Positions 3,010 to 23,137 of a stretch of 64,000 bases of DNA are shown here, piece by piece; within the stretch, counting starts at the first letter, position 1; each line of letters starts with the position of its first letter. The notes under the pieces are model-generated. The model was not told where the DNA came from, searched no databases, and saw only the letters and a list, made by a program, of their open reading frames with translations. The translations under genes were made by a program, and so were the position numbers. This stretch comes from Metabacillus litoralis (GTDB lineage Bacteria; Bacillota; Bacilli; Bacillales; Bacillaceae): the NCBI RefSeq assembly GCF_007994985.1, contig NZ_VOQF01000008.1, positions 186,001-250,000 on the forward strand. The letters are read 5' to 3'.

Positions 3010-3660
3010 TTAATTCTCATCGGTATACCCATTTTTCACTGCAAACAATGCTGCTTGTGTTCGATCTGAAAGTTGCAGCTTAGAAAGGATATTAGAAACA
3101 TGAGTTTTCACTGTCTTTTCTGTAATAAATAGCGCAGATGCTATCTCTTTATTGCTTTTCCCTTTGGCAAGCTCGTTTAAAACTTCTTTTTCACGCTTCG
3201 TCAAATCATTTAGCTTTATAGTTTCTTGTTTTGAACCTAAAGAAAGATGTGTTATAACATGTGCAGTTACCTTCGGATGTAGTTTACTTTCTCCCTTTAA
3301 AACGTCTCGAATAGTTTGAACTAATTCATCTGGTTCAATATCTTTTAGTTGATATCCTGAAGCACCGGCCCGAATAGCTGGGATAACATGATCTTGATCA
3401 GCATAACTCGTTAAAATAATGATTTTCACTTTATCATTAAGTTCTCGTATTGCCTTAGTAGCTTCAACTCCATCCATTTTCGGCATGGATAAATCCATAA
3501 GCACGACATCAGGGTTTAATTCTGTAACCAAAGTTACTGCTTCCAGGCCATTTGTTGCTTCACCAACAATTTCAATATCCTTTTGCGTTTTTAAAAAGAA
3601 TAGTAAGCCTCTTCGAACAACATGATGATCATCTGCAATTAGAACCTTTATCTTTGTCAT
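3010..3660 (-). CDS. yhcZ: NarL/LuxR-type response regulator YhcZ
   Basis: A 216-residue two-domain response regulator. The receiver domain (about 1-120) has acidic residues DD near position 10, phosphoacceptor D56 in VVLMDLSMP and a conserved Lys later. The C-terminal LuxR-type helix-turn-helix is LTKREKEVLNELAKGKSNKEIASALFITEKTVKTHVSNIL. It pairs with YhcY, whose stop codon lies 5 nt upstream. Targets are not visible from the sequence. The downstream azoreductase is co-transcribed. Confidence 0.93.
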   Translation of the reverse strand: MTKIKVLIADDHHVVRRGLLFFLKTQKDIEIVGEATNGLEAVTLVTELNPDVVLMDLSMPKMDGVEATKAIRELNDKVKIIILTSYADQDHVIPAIRAGASGYQLKDIEPDELVQTIRDVLKGESKLHPKVTAHVITHLSLGSKQETIKLNDLTKREKEVLNELAKGKSNKEIASALFITEKTVKTHVSNILSKLQLSDRTQAALFAVKNGYTDEN

Positions 3661-3665
3661 GCTAT

Positions 3666-4796
3666 CTACACTTCTTTCTGTAATGGAATGGTGATTGAAA
3701 TAATTGTACCTGATCCAAGACTGCTGCTTAGATTAAAGTTTCCATTAATCTTCTTGGCACGCTCCTTCATACCCCTTAGCCCCATTGAAGGCAGGTGATT
3801 TTTTTCATCATATTGAAAGCCAATCCCCTTATCCTCAATAATCATTTTAACGGTATAATTTTTACGAGTAATAGAAAGAAAAACCTCAGTTGTTTCAGCA
3901 TGCTTTTTGCAATTATTTAATGCTTCCTGACCAATTCTCCACAGCTCTTCTTCAAGATGACAGGGAAGTGTACATACCCCTTCTATATTTAACTCAGCTT
4001 TCAATCCAAGTACATTTGCATAATTTAATAATGCCGAGCCAATACCATTTTCCAAGCCCTGTGGTCTAAGCTGCCAGATGAGACCTTTCATCTCTGTTAG
4101 TGCCTCTTGTGAAAGCTCCTGAATATAGGAAAGCATATCTTTCACTTCAGTTTCTATTGTCAATTCCTTAGTACCTCTTGCGGTTAACATGATTGAAAAC
4201 AACAATTGATTAACAGAATCATGCAAATCTTGAGCAAGTCTATTTCTTTCTTCTATTAATGCATGTTTACGAGCTTTTTCTACAAGTTGAATTCTGTTAA
4301 TAGCTGTTCCAATTTGAAATGCGACAGATTCTAATAAAGCAAGCTCTTCATCAGTGAAATGCTTTTTATTTGGGGCGGCAATATTAAGCAAACCAAACTT
4401 TTCATTGCCAGCTTGTAAAGGAACAGTAGCATGATGTGTAATTCCATTTGTTTCTCCCCAATTATTCTTAATGGCTGCTTCTATTCTTTTGCAATTTATA
4501 ATATTTGCTGCTTTATTTAATCGATCATCATAATACCGATTAATACACCAGCATCCACCTTCACACATAACTATTTTTTTATTCCAAGAGAGACCTGCTG
4601 GCAAATTATACTCAGCAGCTAATTCATACTCACCTTGTTTATCAATCAAAAATACCCATCCTGTGTTAAGGTCAGTAAGTTTCAATAATTCACACAAAAC
4701 ATCTTTAAGCATTATTTTTACATCGGTGGCTTCATTTAATTTCTCTGCAATCACTTTAAGTGTAGTTAATTCGTGAATTCGGTTATCTTTCATCAT
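3666..4796 (-). CDS. yhcY: GAF-domain HisKA_3 sensor kinase YhcY
   Basis: A 376-residue cytosolic sensor kinase without membrane segments. An N-terminal GAF domain occupies about residues 15-170. The HisKA_3 dimerisation helix carries phosphoacceptor H192 (AQDLHDSVNQLLFS), and a HATPase_c domain follows with EALNNCKKHA (N box) and DKGIGF/GLRGMKERA (G boxes). The GAF domain has a cysteine cluster C78, C82, C84 and C102 (motif CEGGCWC...NCKR) that could bind a metal or respond to redox. That is inference, but it fits the operon partner azoreductase. It partners response regulator YhcZ. Confidence 0.92.
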   Translation of the reverse strand: MMKDNRIHELTTLKVIAEKLNEATDVKIMLKDVLCELLKLTDLNTGWVFLIDKQGEYELAAEYNLPAGLSWNKKIVMCEGGCWCINRYYDDRLNKAANIINCKRIEAAIKNNWGETNGITHHATVPLQAGNEKFGLLNIAAPNKKHFTDEELALLESVAFQIGTAINRIQLVEKARKHALIEERNRLAQDLHDSVNQLLFSIMLTARGTKELTIETEVKDMLSYIQELSQEALTEMKGLIWQLRPQGLENGIGSALLNYANVLGLKAELNIEGVCTLPCHLEEELWRIGQEALNNCKKHAETTEVFLSITRKNYTVKMIIEDKGIGFQYDEKNHLPSMGLRGMKERAKKINGNFNLSSSLGSGTIISITIPLQKEV

Positions 4797-14895: not shown

Positions 14896-15006
14896 TATTT
14901 CCTCCATAACTACATTTTCACTTACAACTCAAACTGTGAACATCATTTACTGTTCTGCATATCGATCTTGATTTAGTTAGTATACCTAGAAAAAATGCCG
15001 TTATTC

Positions 15007-15029
15007 ACTTAAACAAACGTTTAATTAAA
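15007..15029. promoter_or_regulatory. Operator-like palindrome, copy 1
   Basis: Core ttaaacaaacgtttaattaa (15009-15028) has an AAACGTTT centre of the kind bound by LacI- or TetR-family repressors. An identical 23-bp string occurs at 34429-34451. The cognate regulator is not identified. Confidence 0.5.
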
Positions 15030-15239
15030 TCGATATTAAAAATCCACAAAGAAGGTAACTCCTCAGATAAAATCAATTTTACAATCTATAAACAAAGGAA
15101 CCTGCATTTTAACACATAGAAATTAAGATATCTGTAGAAGTATATCAGCTTGAGTATTCTTATTAGCAAAGTAAAGAAAATCATGTTATGTTTAAACCAT
15201 AATTGCACAAAGAGACTTTAGTTTTTTGAAAGTTTTATA

Positions 15240-15270
15240 TTGATGAAGTTTAGTAGATATTTAGTATAAT
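15240..15270 (+). promoter_or_regulatory. Possible promoter of the B12-binding gene
   Basis: A perfect tataat -10 box (15265-15270) lies 35 bp before the start codon, with ttgatg at 15240-15245 as a weak -35. The 19-bp spacing is long, so strength is uncertain. Confidence 0.45.
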
Positions 15271-15305
15271 AGGTACTAGATTAAGTTAGAAAGGAGTGAA
15301 ATCAG

Positions 15306-15962
15306 GTGACTGATTTAACAAAAAAGTTTGCTCATTTCCTCTTACTTGCTGATACAACTAGTTCCTATAGGTTAGTAGAAAAGTTACTTTTAGATGGTTA
15401 TTCTTCTATATATATCTATGAAAAAATCATAAAAGATGCATTATATTATATAGGTTACCTTTGGGAAATTGATGAGATAGGTGTTGCAGATGAACATCTA
15501 GCAACTGGAACTGCTGATTTTATTCTTACGAAGCTACAGTTATTAGTAAATGAACGAGATAATCATAGCAATCAGCAAAAACAAGCTATGTTATTTTGTC
15601 TTGAAGGTGAAGAGCATTATATAGGAATCAAAATGGCGGCTAACATTTTCAAAGAACATAATTGGAATGTAAAATATTTAGGACCTAATTTACCACTTCA
15701 GCATGCTATTTACTTTGCAAACAAATCAAAACCTGATGTTATTTGTCTTTCACTTACGATGTCAAATCAATTAAAGAATTTACCAAATTATATTACTTCT
15801 CTAGCAGAACTGGATCATAAACCTACAATTATTGTAGGCAGTAGACTTTTTGAAAAATATGATCTTACTAAGTTCATACCTAAAAATACAATTGTAATTT
15901 CAGATTTAGAGAAATTATCAAGCTGGATAACAGAGCAAAAGGTTCTTGCTAAGGCTTATTAA
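15306..15962 (+). CDS. Stand-alone B12-binding sensor domain (CarH photoreceptor-like)
   Basis: A 218-residue soluble protein with a helical cap (about 1-85) and a Rossmann-type cobalamin-binding domain (about 92-210). The cap carries W53-x9-E63-H64 (WEIDEIGVADEHLAT), the signature of adenosylcobalamin light sensors of the CarH/LitR group. The lower-ligand motif ExHxxG is E102-E-H104-Y-I-G107. In CarH the residue after the Trp is a His that caps cobalt after illumination; here it is Glu54. The MerR DNA-binding domain of CarH is missing, so output must go through a partner. It starts with GTG, with AAGGAG 10 nt upstream. The neighbours are a PAS-like protein and two orphan kinases. Light sensing is inference; B12 binding is well supported. 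Confidence 0.85.
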   Translation: MTDLTKKFAHFLLLADTTSSYRLVEKLLLDGYSSIYIYEKIIKDALYYIGYLWEIDEIGVADEHLATGTADFILTKLQLLVNERDNHSNQQKQAMLFCLEGEEHYIGIKMAANIFKEHNWNVKYLGPNLPLQHAIYFANKSKPDVICLSLTMSNQLKNLPNYITSLAELDHKPTIIVGSRLFEKYDLTKFIPKNTIVISDLEKLSSWITEQKVLAKAY

Positions 15963-15989
15963 TATTTCTTTACTTCAAATAGTCAATTT

Positions 15990-16149
15990 ATAGGCTCTTT
16001 TCTAGAGATTGTTACTGATCTTATTACTTGTTATAAACAGTGTTTTTACGAATATAAGATGCTTGTTTAATTAGAAGAAATACTCCTAGACTGGATAAAG
16101 TGCTGTATCCATAATGTAACCGAAAGCAACAAAGTTCACGAAAACAGCC
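15990..16149. repeat. ~160-bp interspersed element with inverted termini, copy 1
   Basis: The segment aligns along its length with 22971-23137. Termini are imperfect inverted repeats: ataggctcttttctagag at the left and, complemented, atggctgttttcgtgaac at the right. It is too short for a transposase, so it resembles a MITE. It lies between the B12-binding gene and the PAS-like gene. No clear target-site duplication is seen at this copy. Confidence 0.75.
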
Positions 16150-16190
16150 ATTCATAAACATACAACTTTAAAAAAGGTGTGGTGAACAAA

Positions 16191-16820
16191 ATGTTCTCAC
16201 TTGAAAATGTACCAGTTCCAGTTTTTATACTAAATTCACAACTTGATATTTTACAAACATCGTCTGTAGTGAGAAAGTTATTTCCAAGCCAAAGGAATTT
16301 CCTCCAACTAGTGGACATTGATAGTAAGAATAAAGTTTCCTATTTTCTTCAATCGAACGAAAAAGAAAAATTTGAGGCCAACCTGATAACTTGTGATGAT
16401 GAAATTGAGCTTTTTGAGTTATACCAAACTAAAACGCATGATGAGAATTTATATGTTGTTTGTATTCCTTTGAAAGACAACCTAAAAAAAGTCAGCCACC
16501 AAGTTCATATGCTACGTGAGCAACTCATGGTGACTGACAAGGACAAGCTCGAATATCATCATCGTAAGGAAATTCTTTCTTTGTTTCAGCCTTTCTTAAA
16601 TGATACTGACTTATATCATTTAACAAGCTCTTCAGATAATTTAAAAGCTCTTCCCAACAAGCTCGAGAAAATTGAAGATCTTTTAAGCCTAATCCGCCCT
16701 GATATTATTGAAAGTGGAAAAAGTGATCATTATGAAGTGATTATTGATGAACTAAACGATTTACGTTCTTCAATTGACTTCTACCTTACACTAATGCCTC
16801 TTTTAGACCGCTTTGATTGA
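16191..16820 (+). CDS. PAS-like sensor protein of unknown output
   Basis: A 209-residue soluble protein. Residues about 1-110 look like a PAS domain (VPVPVFILNSQLDILQTSSVVRKLFP, then a beta-rich segment ending NLYVVCIPLKD). The rest is a predicted helical/coiled-coil region with no kinase, STAS or phosphatase motif that I can recognise. I do not know the family. The ATG at 16191 is chosen because AGGTG lies about 11 nt upstream; GTG codons at 16179 and 16182 are too close to that site. Its 3' end overlaps the convergent CheB-CheR kinase gene by 18 bp, which suggests a long-standing pairing. Confidence 0.7.
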   Translation: MFSLENVPVPVFILNSQLDILQTSSVVRKLFPSQRNFLQLVDIDSKNKVSYFLQSNEKEKFEANLITCDDEIELFELYQTKTHDENLYVVCIPLKDNLKKVSHQVHMLREQLMVTDKDKLEYHHRKEILSLFQPFLNDTDLYHLTSSSDNLKALPNKLEKIEDLLSLIRPDIIESGKSDHYEVIIDELNDLRSSIDFYLTLMPLLDRFD

Positions 16821-19800
16821 GCTAGATAAAGGTAATGTTATTTCAACTGTTGTGCCTTTATTTAGTTCACTTAAAAAGACGATTTCCCCATTATGGCTTT
16901 CAATGATTTTTAAACTAACCATTAACCCTAAGCCTGTCCCCTTTTCTTTTGTTGTATAAAAAGGTTCCCCCATTTTTTCCAACTGTTCCTTTGGTATTCC
17001 CTTTCCTTGATCTTGAAAACGAATTAACACTTTATCGTTTTCAATTTGTCGAGTTTCTATAGATAAAATCCCTGTTGATCCTTCCATAGACTCTATTCCA
17101 TTCTTAACAATATTTATAAAAACTTGCTTTAATTCATTCTCAATACCATTAACTTTAAAAAGAACTGGTTCAATTTTCGTTTTTATTGATACATTATTAA
17201 GAATAGCCTGGGTTTCCCAAATTTTCGAAACATCCTTAATAATCTTGTTAACATTCACTTCATGATATGTTACTGACTTTGATCTCGAAAGAACAAGGAA
17301 TTCATTAATAATTTCTTCTAGTCTTAAAAACTCTGACATCATGACCTCAGCGTATTCCTCACTGTAAGACTTCGTTTGTGTCATTAGCTGCAAGAAACCT
17401 TTTAGTGATGTTAGTGGATTTCTGATTTCATGTGCTATTCCTGCGGCAAGCTGACCTACTGCTGAAAGCATTTCAGATTTAATTAACATCTGTTCAGAGC
17501 TCTTCCTCTTGGTAATATCTTCACCAACACGTAGAATCTGAACAACTTCATTTTCTTCATTTTCTACAGGAATTAGCGTTAAATTCTCCCAGAATTGTTC
17601 ACCATTTTTTCCGAAATAAGAGAGTTCTCCAGACCATTCTTCTCCTGCTCTTACCTTCTTCCAATATGATTCAAACTCACTACCCTTGAAATATTCTGTA
17701 TAAATATCCTTTAGTTTTTTTCCAATAACCTCGTGTGGTTTAATGCCAAGCTGCTTTGCAAATCTACTATTAGCATACTCGATCTTTCCTTGGAAATCTG
17801 TAACAACTGTATTCGCTGGGCTTAGTTCAATTGCTTGTTTACTTAACTGAAGTTCACGATTTACTTTTCTAATGGCTGAAATATCTACGAATGTTATAAC
17901 AATACCTTCTATTAAATTATGATTCGTTCGATAAGGCATTATTTTGATATGAAACCATTCTCCATCTTTTGAAGGTAATTCTTTATCGATTGTTTTGGCT
18001 GTTACTAAAACATCCTGGATATCATTCATTAAATATTCATAATCTAAGCGATGTGAAATATGATGAATCGGACGTCCAATATCACGCTCAATAAGATGGA
18101 AAATTTTCGTGGACTCTGGTGTATATAGCTTAATATTTAACATTTTATCTAAAAATATGGTGGCAATATTAGTATTGATTAATAAATTATCCATATCATT
18201 ATTTAGATTTGTCAGTTCTGCTATCTTTTTCTCATATTCTGTGTTCACTGTAATTAACTCTTCATTAACAGACTGCATTTCTTCGTTTGTGCTTTGAAGC
18301 TCTTCATTTGCAGCTATTAATTCTTCATTCGTGCTTTGAAGCTCTTCATTAGAGGTTTCTAATTCCTCAATTGTTGTTTGCAAGCCTTGCTTTGTATAAT
18401 ATAGCTCCTGCTCTAAGTCAAAAATACGTTGATTATATGCAGTATCATGATCAAATAAAATAGAGTCACTTTTAAATTTAATTGTAGATTCTGGTCGATG
18501 TTCTTCTATAAATAAAGCAATATAATCCTTTTTCACATTAGATAACGGTTTTACAACCAATTGAACCTGTTTGCTTTCACTTTTATTGAGTAAAAGGTTT
18601 TCGTATTTAATTTCTTTTCCATCTTGACGTGCTCTTTTAATCGCAGTACCAATCGCGACAGATAAATTGGTAGGAACCATATTAAATATATTATAGTTAA
18701 GTTTACCTTTTGGAAGATTTAAGTATGCTCCAGCATTTCCTGATGAAATGACGACTTCATTATGTTCATTTATAATAATTGAAGGTGGCAATAGCTCATC
18801 CATCAATGAATTGAAAAGTTCATCAGCATAATGATAATGCTTAGTATCTCTGTATGCTTCTATCGTTAACTTATCTCTGCTATTTTCACCCTGTGAATTA
18901 TTTGTTGAAATTAATGCATGTGGCAAATGCTGATTTTGTTCCATTAAATTATTAGAGAATATCTTCCATTTACTGTTCACTGGACCAAACAAGCTTGATA
19001 GCTTTCCTATTGTTTCACTAGGTCCTAAAAATAAATATCCCTTTTCCTTTAGTGCAAAATGAAACAATGATAATACCTTTTGCTGTAGCTCTGCTTGAAA
19101 ATAAATCATGACATTTCGACAACTGATCATATCAATATTAACAAAAGGAGAATCTTTAATCATATTATGAGGGGCAAAAACTATCTTCTGCCTTATTTCT
19201 CGTTTTACTTGATAATCACTACCATCTCTATCAAAATACTTTAACAAAAGATCTTGAGGAATTGTTGTAACGATTTGCTCTGAATAACATCCTTGGCTTG
19301 CAAATTTTACAGAATCACGATCAATATCGGTCGCAAATAATTGCAAATCCATATCTATTTTTCTTTTCTCAATTTCTTCATTAAATAGGATAACTAATGA
19401 ATAAGCTTCTTGTCCTGTTGAACAACCCGCTACCCATATTCTCATTTTTTTACGACCTTTAACCAAATTATCATCAACCATTGTAGGTATTAATGTTTGT
19501 TTTAAATAGTTAAAAGCCTCACTATCTCTAAAAAAGTGAGTAACTCCAATTAATAAATCTTCTTGTAGATACCTAATTTCCCGTGGATTTTCTAAGAGAT
19601 AGTTTTTATAATCCTCTAGTGTTGAAAAAGACTGTTCATTCAGAGACATTCTTCTTTCAATTCGACGTATAACGGTATTCCTTTTATACATCGAAAAGTC
19701 GATGCCACTTTTCTTCTGTATCATCACTAATACCTGATTCAGGGTGGATTCATTAAAACTAACTGGTTTTGCATCGATATAATTAATGATATGCTGTGGC

Positions 19801-20387
19801 ATTTCTGTTGGACTTATGACAAAATCTGCAATTCCTGATTTTATAGCACTTTCAGGCATATCAGAGTATTTAGCAGTCTTATTTTGAATAAGACATAATC
19901 CACTTTTTTCATGAATATCATTAAGTCCTTTAGTTCCATCTGATCCTTTACCAGAAAAAATAACCCCAATTGCCCGTTCTTCAGCATATGATGCTAAAGA
20001 AGTAAGAAAACCATTGATCGGGTAATTGATCGCTTTATCTTTATCGTATTTTTCTAGTTGTAAAACACCCTCATCTTTAATATAAATGTAATGATTAGGT
20101 GGACATAAATAAACTGTTCGCGCTTTTAAAATCATCCCTTCTTCTGCTTGAATGACCTTCATGTCGGTATGTTTTTTCAATAACTCTGGCATAAAGCTTT
20201 TATACTGTGATGATAAATGTTGAACAATAACAAATGCAGCATCTATATTAGTTTTAATAGATTGAAAAAACTGCTCAATAGGTTCAAGCCCCCCTGCTGA
20301 TGCACCAATTCCAACGATATAAGGAACAAGATGGTTAGCTTTATTATTATGTTCAATAATCTCTTGCCCTTCTGTTACATTTGACAT
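16803..20387 (-). CDS. CheB-CheR-coiled coil-PAS-PAS-histidine kinase fusion
   Basis: A 1194-residue cytosolic signalling protein. Residues about 20-205 form a CheB methylesterase domain with S30 (GIGASAGG), H57 (VQHLSS) and D150 (SGKGSDGT), and no receiver domain in front. Residues about 212-480 form a CheR methyltransferase with AGCSTGQEAYS for SAM and SCRNVMIYF. A heptad-like coiled coil rich in NEELQST repeats runs about 655-730. Two PAS domains follow (about 733-840 and 850-960). The HisKA H is H986 (AGIAHEIRNPLTSLKGFLQL), and the HATPase_c domain has N, G1 and G2 boxes (FINIVKNG, DQGKGIP, GTGLGL). No response regulator is adjacent. The phosphoacceptor region resembles Bacillus sporulation kinases. 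All catalytic residues seem intact. Confidence 0.92.
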   Translation of the reverse strand: MSNVTEGQEIIEHNNKANHLVPYIVGIGASAGGLEPIEQFFQSIKTNIDAAFVIVQHLSSQYKSFMPELLKKHTDMKVIQAEEGMILKARTVYLCPPNHYIYIKDEGVLQLEKYDKDKAINYPINGFLTSLASYAEERAIGVIFSGKGSDGTKGLNDIHEKSGLCLIQNKTAKYSDMPESAIKSGIADFVISPTEMPQHIINYIDAKPVSFNESTLNQVLVMIQKKSGIDFSMYKRNTVIRRIERRMSLNEQSFSTLEDYKNYLLENPREIRYLQEDLLIGVTHFFRDSEAFNYLKQTLIPTMVDDNLVKGRKKMRIWVAGCSTGQEAYSLVILFNEEIEKRKIDMDLQLFATDIDRDSVKFASQGCYSEQIVTTIPQDLLLKYFDRDGSDYQVKREIRQKIVFAPHNMIKDSPFVNIDMISCRNVMIYFQAELQQKVLSLFHFALKEKGYLFLGPSETIGKLSSLFGPVNSKWKIFSNNLMEQNQHLPHALISTNNSQGENSRDKLTIEAYRDTKHYHYADELFNSLMDELLPPSIIINEHNEVVISSGNAGAYLNLPKGKLNYNIFNMVPTNLSVAIGTAIKRARQDGKEIKYENLLLNKSESKQVQLVVKPLSNVKKDYIALFIEEHRPESTIKFKSDSILFDHDTAYNQRIFDLEQELYYTKQGLQTTIEELETSNEELQSTNEELIAANEELQSTNEEMQSVNEELITVNTEYEKKIAELTNLNNDMDNLLINTNIATIFLDKMLNIKLYTPESTKIFHLIERDIGRPIHHISHRLDYEYLMNDIQDVLVTAKTIDKELPSKDGEWFHIKIMPYRTNHNLIEGIVITFVDISAIRKVNRELQLSKQAIELSPANTVVTDFQGKIEYANSRFAKQLGIKPHEVIGKKLKDIYTEYFKGSEFESYWKKVRAGEEWSGELSYFGKNGEQFWENLTLIPVENEENEVVQILRVGEDITKRKSSEQMLIKSEMLSAVGQLAAGIAHEIRNPLTSLKGFLQLMTQTKSYSEEYAEVMMSEFLRLEEIINEFLVLSRSKSVTYHEVNVNKIIKDVSKIWETQAILNNVSIKTKIEPVLFKVNGIENELKQVFINIVKNGIESMEGSTGILSIETRQIENDKVLIRFQDQGKGIPKEQLEKMGEPFYTTKEKGTGLGLMVSLKIIESHNGEIVFLSELNKGTTVEITLPLSSSIKAV

Positions 20388-20741
20388 ACTATATCCTCCT
20401 TTACAATCTCTCTATCTCATTGATATTAGAAAGATATTCACAATAAAAATGCTCATTGATTAATATTTAAAAATTGAAGTAAACTTCAATAGGATCTATA
20501 TATCAAAATGTTCAGTACGCTAAATGTATGTAATAATTCTACAAAAACTGTACTTAATCCTTTTCTATTGTAACTTATTAAACTATTTAACTGAATCTCT
20601 TATAGGCTTATTTGAAAAAAATTCAGATATGTGCTTTCATTCTCTACAAGGTACACTCCATATTAAATTCGTTATTGGAAAATTAAAGGAACCCAAAAAG
20701 GCCTAAACCTCTAAGTTAGAGGTCTGACCCGATGGTATGCT
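20388..20741. other. Spacer between the two orphan kinase genes
   Basis: 354 bp, AT-rich. It contains the ribosome site of the CheB-CheR kinase at its left end and a terminator-like hairpin at its right end. A 60-codon frame at 20524-20706 has no ribosome site and an unlikely composition. No gene is called. Confidence 0.55.
20690..20724 (-). terminator. Probable terminator after the GAF-PAS kinase
   Basis: Stem cctct/agagg extended to acctctaa with ttagaggt (about 20707-20722). On the minus strand it is followed by TTTAGGCCTTTTTGGG. Confidence 0.55.
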
Positions 20742-22793
20742 CTACGAAATTGGTAATAAGATCTTTACGCTTGTACCAATATCTAATTGACTTTTAAAAT
20801 GAATTTGCCCCTTATGATTTTGAATAATCCGATAACTTATCATTAATCCTAACCCACTACCTTTTTCTTTATTTGAATAATAAGGTTCACCAAGCTTGGC
20901 AATTCGATCTTCTGGAATCCCTACACCACTGTCACTAATTATAATATAAATAAATTCAGAGTTTTCCTCTCCGAATTCTACATTCACTATTCCACCAGCT
21001 GGCATTGCGTCAATAGCATTGCTCATAATATGCTGGAAAACCTGTTTGATTTGATGTTCATTACTATTTATTGGCTGCAGGTTGTCATCGCCATTTATTG
21101 TAAACGAAATATTTTGATGTTCTGCAGAATCTCTCATTAAATTTATAACATCTAAGATAAGGTGAGGAATATGATTTATTTCACGCTTCGTTTCCATATG
21201 TGAATTAGCTAGGATGAGTATTTCATTAATGAATTCTTCGATTTGATTAAACTCTGATAAAATCAATTCCTGGTATGGAATTTGATTCTCTTGTAATAGC
21301 TGAAAAAAACCTTTTATACTTGTTAATGGGTTTCTTACTTCATGTGCAATACTTGCTGCAATTTGACCAACTGCTGCAAGTTTATCAGATTTTCGTAGTA
21401 GATCACTATTTAACTTTGCTTCTGTAATATCCTCTGCTACACCAACTAATCTATATTTTTTTCCAGCTTCATTATAGATAGGAACTATACGACTACGTAT
21501 CCAACGAACTTTTCCATTACCTTTAATAATTCTAAAATCGAATTCAATACTATTTGTTATCGTTTTAATTTGATTTTGAACATACTCTCTATCTTCTGGG
21601 TGAATTAAGTCATGCCATACTTGAAGGGAAAGGAATTCTTCATCTCTCAAGCCTGAAATTTCAGCCATAACTCTACTACTATATAATAGTCTCATTTCAC
21701 CAAGATCATAAATCCAAAAAGCTTCATTAATATTGTTTGCTATTTGCTGAAACCTTTCTTGGCTTTCCTTGAGGCTTTTTTCAGTTTGCAATCTCTCAAG
21801 CTCATTTCCAACCCATTGTGTGATCAATTGAATAAATTCAAGATCTGATGTGTTTATTGTTCTTAACCTCTCTTCTTCCTCCCTAAAAAAACAAAATGTT
21901 CCATACAGCTTTTTGTTTACAAATATAGGTGCACCCACATATTCCTTTATTCCAACATAACTACTTTCTTGCAAATAATCTGGTTTGAGGTGTATTGGCT
22001 TTAATTTTTCAACAACTTTTAATGCACAAATTTCATTTAATGCAAAAATCTCTCCGGCATATCGTGAAACTCCTGTTTTCGATTTCTCTTTTATTACCTT
22101 ATATTTATTATCATCAACACAAGAAATAAGACCATTTGGAAGTTGAAACCGTTCACATCCCAAAGTCAGTAATTTATTTAATTTCTCTTGAAATGTATAT
22201 TCATTACTACTCGTAATTTCATACAGGCAACTAATTGACTTTTCACTTAATGTTCTTTCGATTAAATCTGTTCGAAGTTCTATTTCAGTAATGATCCACT
22301 TACTTAAATCTATTAAGTTATTAAGTTCTTCGCTACTTAGATTCCTTGGCTTATAATCTAATATACAAAGTGATCCTAAAACATTATCATTTTTCGTAAT
22401 AATTGGTGCTCCTGCATAAAAACGGAACCCTTTTTCTTTAACGAGCCTATTATTTCTAAAACGCTCATCTAATAATGCATCATTCACAACAAGAGGTTCC
22501 TTATCAACAACTACATAGTGACAAAATGCTGCACTTCGTTCTGTTGACCTTTCTACTTTTAGATCATCTGAAATACCAACACAAGACTTAAACCACTGCT
22601 TTTCTTCTGTTATCAAAGTAAAAAGTGCAATAGGTGCATGAAACAGTCTACTTGTTAAATCCGTTATTCGATCAAAGGAATCTTCATATGGAGTATATAT
22701 AAGATTGAGTTTATATAATTCTGTTAACCTTCTTTTTTCTCTTTCAATAAAAGAAGCTCCGAATTCTTTAAATAATTCATCTACGTTATAAAT
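20742..22793 (-). CDS. GAF-GAF-PAS sensor histidine kinase with apparent AUU start
   Basis: A 683-residue cytosolic kinase. GAF1 spans about 20-175, GAF2 about 185-335 and PAS about 345-465. HisKA has H484 (AASIAHEVRNPLTSIKGFFQL), and HATPase_c has SDSGVGIP and GSGLGLMIS. The first ATG/GTG/TTG in frame is TTG at 22616, which would cut off the front of GAF1. The frame stays open upstream and encodes typical family sequence (EDSFDRITDLTSRLFHAPIA). The only well-placed initiator is ATT at 22793, nine nt after an AAGGAG site at 22803-22808; an in-frame stop lies at 22800-22802. AUU initiation is therefore proposed. A point mutation or sequence error of an original ATG is the alternative. No response regulator is adjacent. 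Confidence 0.82.
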   Translation of the reverse strand: MYNVDELFKEFGASFIEREKRRLTELYKLNLIYTPYEDSFDRITDLTSRLFHAPIALFTLITEEKQWFKSCVGISDDLKVERSTERSAAFCHYVVVDKEPLVVNDALLDERFRNNRLVKEKGFRFYAGAPIITKNDNVLGSLCILDYKPRNLSSEELNNLIDLSKWIITEIELRTDLIERTLSEKSISCLYEITSSNEYTFQEKLNKLLTLGCERFQLPNGLISCVDDNKYKVIKEKSKTGVSRYAGEIFALNEICALKVVEKLKPIHLKPDYLQESSYVGIKEYVGAPIFVNKKLYGTFCFFREEEERLRTINTSDLEFIQLITQWVGNELERLQTEKSLKESQERFQQIANNINEAFWIYDLGEMRLLYSSRVMAEISGLRDEEFLSLQVWHDLIHPEDREYVQNQIKTITNSIEFDFRIIKGNGKVRWIRSRIVPIYNEAGKKYRLVGVAEDITEAKLNSDLLRKSDKLAAVGQIAASIAHEVRNPLTSIKGFFQLLQENQIPYQELILSEFNQIEEFINEILILANSHMETKREINHIPHLILDVINLMRDSAEHQNISFTINGDDNLQPINSNEHQIKQVFQHIMSNAIDAMPAGGIVNVEFGEENSEFIYIIISDSGVGIPEDRIAKLGEPYYSNKEKGSGLGLMISYRIIQNHKGQIHFKSQLDIGTSVKILLPIS

Positions 22794-22970: not shown

Positions 22971-23137
22971 TATAGGCTCTTTTCTGAAAGATTGTTGCTA
23001 ATTGACATCTTTATCTGTTGCAACAAGTGTTTCATCGCATAAAAGGTACAATTTGGAGAAGAAAAGATGCCACTAGACCTTATACAGAGTTGTATCCATT
23101 AGGATACTAAAAACAACAAAGTTTACGAAAACAGCCT
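22971..23137. repeat. ~165-bp interspersed element with inverted termini, copy 2
   Basis: Homologous to 15990-16149 in the same orientation. Left end tataggctcttttctg, right end gtttacgaaaacagcct; the ends are imperfect inverted repeats. A 7-bp direct repeat, aaataaa, flanks the element (22964-22970 and 23138-23144), which looks like a target-site duplication. It has no coding capacity. Confidence 0.8.

Follow-up and report, generated by a model that had tools for sequence, protein, structure and literature searches.

How does a cobalamin-binding protein of the CarH type pass on its signal when the DNA-binding domain through which CarH acts is missing? The question is raised by a locus in the window, a stretch of 64,000 nucleotides from contig NZ_VOQF01000008.1 of Metabacillus litoralis, in which the gene for such a protein (15306 to 15962, forward strand, GTG start, 218 amino acids) stands upstream of a gene for a PAS-like protein and near two kinase genes. 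The answer preferred here, at a probability of roughly 0.47, slightly under even odds, is that this B12 protein senses adenosylcobalamin (AdoCbl), most likely as a receptor for green light, within a modular system of the Bacillales in which a PAS adaptor sets the output. The standalone cobalamin domain would signal through a PAS adaptor of its own, the product of the gene immediately downstream, and the second half of that adaptor would determine what is controlled.

The B12 protein consists of a helical part (B12-binding_2, residues 7-74, Pfam 2.9e-7) and a Rossmann part (B12-binding, residues 94-179, 3.9e-13). No MerR domain was found in it by Pfam, and the B12 part begins at residue 7. A preliminary description of this DNA, made from its letters alone, had named a CarH-like B12 domain without MerR and the motifs W53, E63-H64 and E102-x-H104-x-x-G107; both are borne out in the open reading frame of 218 amino acids, at the same coordinates. 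The codons for Trp53 (15462 to 15464), Glu63-His64 (15492 to 15497) and His104 (15615 to 15617), all on the forward strand, lie at the places of CarH Trp131, Glu141-His142 and His177, His104 being the expected lower axial ligand of the cobalt. The signature of light-responsive cobalamin domains, as given in PMC11796333, is GxxW / EH / GxxH / GxxxP, and it is complete here (G50-W53, E63-H64, G101-H104, G126-P130). The closest relatives by sequence in the PDB are the photocobilin SasPcob (3.4e-14), then the MerR-type protein 8jbs, then CarH; the nearest NCBIfam model is CarH, well under its cut-off (59.9 versus 400 bits). Searching with the protein led to relatives in M. crassostreae (90% identical) and M. 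litoralis (75%). It is highly improbable that the protein carries methyl groups on a corrinoid for a methyltransferase system (MtaC/MtbC type). Such carriers belong to the same superfamily and the NCBIfam models of MtgC, MtaC and MtbC match weakly, but CarH and photocobilin match better, the adenosyl-pocket residues Trp and Glu-His are kept, and no corrinoid methyltransferase is present among the 26 of 54 window open reading frames covered by the Pfam scan, which did not extend to the flanks of the other loci.

The four key places are occupied by W, E, H and H in 84 of 87 aligned B12 rows (86 standalone proteins and the MerR-CarH of the window genome). The exceptions are L063 (H104 to Q) and L190 and L194 (H64 to Y), where L numbers denote loci and G numbers genomes. 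The two latter are B12 paralogues encoded beside a PAS-kinase, with Tyr for the His of Glu-His, and are possibly a light-blind form. At the place of CarH His132 the window protein has Glu54, as first described. The different photochemistry then suggested is not special to this protein, since Glu is found there in 82 of the 87 rows, Gln in 4 and Leu in 1, and Gln is aligned there in SasPcob. The light state of SasPcob is a water- or hydroxide-ligated cobalamin without the large bis-His change of CarH, according to PMC10979010. Given Glu54 and this precedent, the window protein would not be expected to form the bis-His state of CarH, yet a light response is possible. The MerR-type CarH-like protein of the window genome (L002, G000:C1:729.5-730.1 kb) also has Glu at this place.

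A cobalamin adenosyltransferase and a MetH-sized B12 protein are likewise encoded in the window genome and share the cofactor with the MerR-CarH. Metabacillus is not phototrophic. With the Glu at the upper-ligand place, which speaks against a CarH-style bis-His light state, these points favour a sensor of cobalamin level that reports the supply of AdoCbl to the adaptor, photolysis being incidental. Such a sensor is clearly the less probable kind, as the light signature of PMC11796333 is present in full, the strong co-occurrence with a bilin-type globin (see below) points to light, and SasPcob also lacks the His, yet is light-responsive (PMC10979010).

The link between B12 protein and PAS protein was followed through 397 genomes of the order Bacillales. 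At E 1e-15 the B12 family was found in 191 of them; 17 were removed, their strongest B12 hits falling short of 1e-30 (these are probably MerR-CarH or MetH proteins), leaving 174. The B12 family and the PAS profile occur together in 169 genomes, the B12 family alone in 5, the PAS profile alone in 6 and neither in 217; the genomes are related and kinship was left uncorrected, so that the tiny Fisher p-values for co-occurrence overstate independence. Two of the removed genomes (G072, G105) fall among the 6 with the PAS profile only. Sixty loci from 41 genera were hand-picked among the matches listed, and their proportions are not random-sample estimates. A gene for PAS-X directly follows the B12 gene in 58 of the 60, where X is an RsbR-like STAS domain in 45, the window type in 7, kinase-like in 5 and a split PAS-STAS in 1. 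The seven of window type are six window-type PAS proteins and the short variant L149 (179 amino acids), which a script had labelled 'PAS-short' together with the split PAS-STAS of L119. As to the two loci without a downstream PAS gene, G022 has an unlinked PAS-STAS gene elsewhere in the genome, and G185 has two further B12 genes with PAS partners (L128, PAS-STAS; L190, PAS-kinase). These counts support a real B12-PAS link whose general output is mostly an RsbR-like STAS domain, not a kinase. The coupling of B12 and PAS genes, first proposed from proximity, has thus held up well; that of the B12 gene with kinases applies to the window type, where a convergent CheR gene is present in every locus examined, and fails as a general rule. 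Genomes in which the B12 gene regularly occurs without the PAS and kinase genes had been named as a refutation, and half of this was found: the kinases are regularly absent, while the PAS gene stays.

The STAS type is represented in the window genome by a sister locus (G000:C74:141 kb), where a gene for a second B12 protein, 38% identical to the first, is followed by an overlapping gene for a protein of 262 amino acids. The N-terminus of the latter is 30% identical to the window PAS protein over 121 residues, and its C-terminal STAS domain lies at the edge of the cut-off of 22.6 bits (23.7 bits in one scan, 22.2 in another). Four relatives of this PAS-STAS protein score 26.5-32.2 bits for STAS. 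One of them, L066, matches RsbR (4.9e-10) and 2mwg (1.6e-9), which we take to be the blue-light photoreceptor YtvA, over the STAS part. RsbR carries two phosphorylated Thr; Asp and Gly stand at their places in the alignment of L066, the one protein compared in this respect. The STAS part is thus shared with the RsbR paralogues and YtvA, while the linked separate B12 protein and the PAS-like N-terminus are unlike them. The window genome also has an operon with an Rsbr_N-STAS protein, in which genes resembling those for RsbS, RsbT, RsbU, RsbV, RsbW, SigB and RsbX were recognised by order and sequence. In the sister system the B12 domain would act through the PAS-STAS protein on the stressosome. 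The photoreceptors cited for stressosomes of Bacillales are mainly of the LOV type, and a literature search gave no relevant report of a link between cobalamin or B12 and the stressosome.

The window adaptor (16179 to 16820, forward strand) combines an N-terminal PAS-like domain with a C-terminal hairpin related to the dimerisation and histidine phosphotransfer (DHp) domain. It was described at first as an unassigned PAS-like protein, and Pfam indeed names no family firmly, either for this protein (PAS at E 0.14 at best) or for 13 adaptor rows; when the PDB was searched with the adaptor profile, even the top hit, a potassium-channel PAS region (0.038), was unconvincing. The protein can nonetheless be placed, being homologous to the PAS half of proteins that end in STAS or kinase. 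In hhalign it aligns with the kinase-type adaptors over the PAS and dimerisation region (201 columns, 99.9%). Because the PAS domain might carry the whole score, the C-terminal part was tested alone at two cut points, and it matched the DHp region of the PAS-kinases with E 4.9e-5 (68%) and 1.4e-5 (80%), compared with 0.33 and 0.51 for reversed controls. No HATPase match and no His at the aligned phospho-acceptor place were found in it. Two long helices (152-178 and 182-210) are predicted in its model. From these comparisons it was concluded that the adaptor is a PAS protein carrying a silent, histidine-less DHp remnant.

In the window the adaptor gene converges on a gene for a CheB-CheR-PAS-PAS-HisKA-HATPase kinase (16803 to 20387, reverse strand), in which the CheB, CheR and kinase motifs are kept; the two genes overlap by 18 bp (16803-16820). 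The identical overlap is seen in L005, L006, L058, L059, L060 and L061. Outside Metabacillus, the B12 gene, the adaptor gene and a convergent CheR-containing gene stand together in all 7 window-type loci sampled, and in 6 of 6 further loci chosen for window-type PAS genes, five of which belong to genera already sampled. Within Metabacillus a convergent CheR gene lies beside the PAS gene in all 11 genomes that have this PAS gene. Photolysis of the Co-C bond may be the switch: as long as cobalamin carries its adenosyl group, the B12 domain would stay in its dark state, binding the adaptor or locking it, and the adaptor freed by light would modulate the convergent CheB-CheR-PAS kinase through contact with it. 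Binding of AdoCbl, contact between the proteins and the direction of the effect are what we infer for this scheme from the parts and their arrangement.

A quick tree of 87 B12 rows places the 18 window-type rows on one side of a single branch (support by the Shimodaira-Hasegawa-like approximate likelihood ratio test 92, under the program's mark of 95). The PAS-STAS rows cluster together and the PAS-kinase rows lie near the root, which is unsure, being set by the very distant MerR-CarH row. The output labels change 5 times on the tree, the minimum possible, as compared with 27.8 times in shuffles, a result favoured by near-copies among the rows. The tree fits a co-evolution of receptor and adaptor in which the adaptor end would rarely change, and a PAS-kinase has perhaps decayed into the window adaptor.

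A gene for a globin of about 120 residues is located nearby on the same strand in 35 of the 60 loci. In 30 of these it stands, with an ABM monooxygenase-like gene, upstream of the B12 gene, and 28 of the 30 continue into a PAS-STAS gene; in two further loci the ABM-globin pair comes after a PAS-kinase-like gene. The top PDB matches of a profile of 31 globins, with modest E-values, are phycocyanin (0.0015), SasPcob (0.018) and AbPcob (0.047). In the profile alignment D36 and W62, both invariant, are paired with an Asp and a Trp of SasPcob that lie 26 positions apart, the spacing of the biliverdin-contacting Asp270 and Trp296. The catalytic residues of IsdG are Asn, Trp and His. The ABM gene that precedes the globin gene matches the IsdG family (8avh, 3.1e-7), with Trp and His aligned; in the single alignment displayed, Ser stands where the catalytic Asn would be. 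No heme oxygenase of the HO-1 type was found in the window genome, where the ABM-globin pair is unlinked to the B12 locus (globin G000:C45:480814, ~481 kb). Across the 397 genomes (again uncorrected for relatedness) B12 family and globin occur together in 150, B12 alone in 24, globin alone in 11 (including G072, G105, G123, G191 and G376, which had been removed from the B12 count) and neither in 212. Among 21 Metabacillus genomes the globin is found in exactly the 12 with a standalone B12 gene (E <=1e-40), unlinked to it in 10 of the 12, and not in the other 9. This bilin-type globin may bind a bilin and associate with the B12 domain in the manner of photocobilins, which would extend the range to red light. 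It is tentatively suggested, as a possibility short of probable, that four separate parts (heme-monooxygenase-like enzyme, bilin globin, AdoCbl domain and PAS adaptor) form a common green/red photosensor of Bacillales, whose outputs (stressosome, kinase-like protein or CheB-CheR kinase) are swapped by the adaptor end. Globin and stressosome branch are absent from the preliminary description.

Several results weigh against the light-sensing, adaptor-based reading. In the window strain a repeat element separates the B12 gene from the PAS gene. G038 has a window-type locus and no globin; with the other B12-only genomes it indicates that the globin is not indispensable. The kinase-type adaptors have an ATPase domain in 5 of 5 sampled, with the acceptor His present only in L133 and replaced by Glu in L140, Asn in L148, Ser in L150 and Thr in L146, so that ordinary phosphotransfer output is doubtful even there. 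Three PAS-kinase adaptors outside the 60 loci (L190, L193, L194) keep this His, and its loss is common in the kinase-type line. The hairpin of the window adaptor does not match the DHp region of the CheB-CheR kinase significantly (E 0.03, 0.057), and no claim of a mixed four-helix bundle is made. The AlphaFold2 model of the adaptor from three rows is poor (mean predicted local distance difference test score, pLDDT, 52.1), with block values of 67-80 over residues 151-200, 51 in the last block and below 50 for 1-97. That of the B12 protein, also from three rows, is poor as well (mean pLDDT 56.3); a fold search with it returned CarH, photocobilin and corrinoid proteins at a template modelling score of ~0.4 and a root-mean-square deviation of ~13, and was given no weight.

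The remaining adverse points concern the gene neighbourhood. Of the 11 Metabacillus genomes that encode the adaptor, four have lost the B12 gene or carry it in damaged form: G005 has none at the locus, in G014 it is reduced to a fragment with three stops, in G012 it has one stop, and in G010 both Gly126 and the axial His (H104 to Q) are lost. All four keep the adaptor and both kinases, so in this lineage at least the adaptor-kinase pair seems useful independently of the B12 protein. In two other genera the CheR gene has no kinase part. L147 and L158 encode CheB-CheR(-PAS) without a kinase domain, still convergent to the adaptor; in L149 and L196 CheR alone remains, likewise convergent, L197 being similar by length and profile; and L058 has its CheB-CheR kinase divided between two reading frames. 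With the kinase end variably missing, the constant partner is the CheR part, not the kinase. On this evidence the B12 gene and the kinases could be separate neighbours, the adaptor bringing another signal to the CheB-CheR kinase and the B12 protein being a dispensable or decaying input. The convergent arrangement, which gives no single operon with the kinase, agrees with this. The steady company of B12 gene, adaptor and convergent CheR in the loci outside Metabacillus and the branch formed by the window-type B12 proteins do not, and an arrangement of mere neighbours is considered rather unlikely.

The B12 receptor with a PAS adaptor can be set beside several known systems. With CarH/LitR (Thermus thermophilus TtCarH) the window protein shares the cobalamin domain, Trp, Glu-His, the axial His and GxxxP; it differs from TtCarH in lacking the MerR domain, in having Glu for His132 and in being encoded beside a PAS adaptor. 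AerR (7te2) is likewise a standalone cobalamin domain, with a far weaker sequence match to the window protein (0.084). AerR acts by protein contact, on CrtJ/PpsR. The photocobilins (SasPcob, 8J2W; AbDPcob, 8J2Y; PMC10979010) are the closest sequence relatives of the B12 domain and resemble it in the non-His residue at the His132 place and in the co-occurring bilin-type globin. Unlike the photocobilins, in which globin and B12 domain are fused, the window protein is a B12 domain only, the globin is a separate gene, and the partners in Bacillales are PAS-STAS, PAS-kinase-like or PAS-pseudo-DHp proteins. Separate neighbouring genes for globin and B12 protein are shared with the BBAG-2/B12 clusters, which have heme oxygenase in the cluster or genome and genes of the pre-2 group of ferredoxin-dependent bilin reductases, in Myxococcales and others (PMC10151467); the Bacillales loci differ in that they have PAS outputs and an ABM/IsdG-like gene. 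Neither the encoding of the parts in separate genes, nor the two branches (stressosome and CheB-CheR), nor their spread in Bacillales turned up in the literature search, outside which most subscription papers fell. A photoglobin paper reportedly describes gene neighbourhoods of photoglobin and B12 proteins with signalling domains, so some of the wider B12-globin pattern may have been published before. The component parts are of known kinds; the B12 photoreceptor-like module with swappable PAS outputs is wider than first noted. If the reading is right, a B12 light input, possibly with a bilin, is wired to general stress and kinase-type signalling in many Bacillales (174 of 397 genomes), and light is a signal for general stress responses in many Firmicutes that are not phototrophic. 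One receptor with swappable PAS ends, all small soluble proteins, could also give compact green-light switches.

The element between the B12 and PAS genes (15989 to 16149, strand not assigned) resembles a miniature inverted-repeat transposable element of ~160 bp and ends near TAGGCTCTTTTC on one side and GAAAACAGCC on the other. It has 40 matches across the genome, its own copy counted, and is missing between the two genes in the two nearest species. A second copy, 70% identical, lies at 22971-23136. A scan of 14900-16900 was uninformative, with 13 promoter-like sites versus 10.5 in shuffles and no terminator. A plasmid search for named carriers returned 12 distant records (Azospirillum and others), all below 60% identity. 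The neighbours had also been called soluble and without response regulators. The former is plausible, since no 19-residue window exceeds a hydropathy of 1.6 in any of the four locus proteins, as opposed to two membrane or lipoprotein controls that do; as to the latter, the nearest response regulator found among the reading frames scanned is of NarL type (3010-3660) and is paired with its own GAF-HisKA_3 kinase (3010-4796 together). The domain orders given earlier for the two kinases are right by Pfam. The second, a GAF-GAF-PAS-HisKA-HATPase kinase (20742 to 22793, reverse strand), stands beside the CheB-CheR kinase in all 11 Metabacillus loci of window type and has a probable ATT start. Its conserved N-terminus seems to open with ATT at 22793, and likewise in L005, L006, L059, L061 and L062, in most cases after a ribosome site resembling GGAG. 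Between the preceding stop and that ATT no ATG, GTG or TTG occurs in the window, L005 or L006, unlike L059 and L062, in which in-frame upstream start candidates are present.

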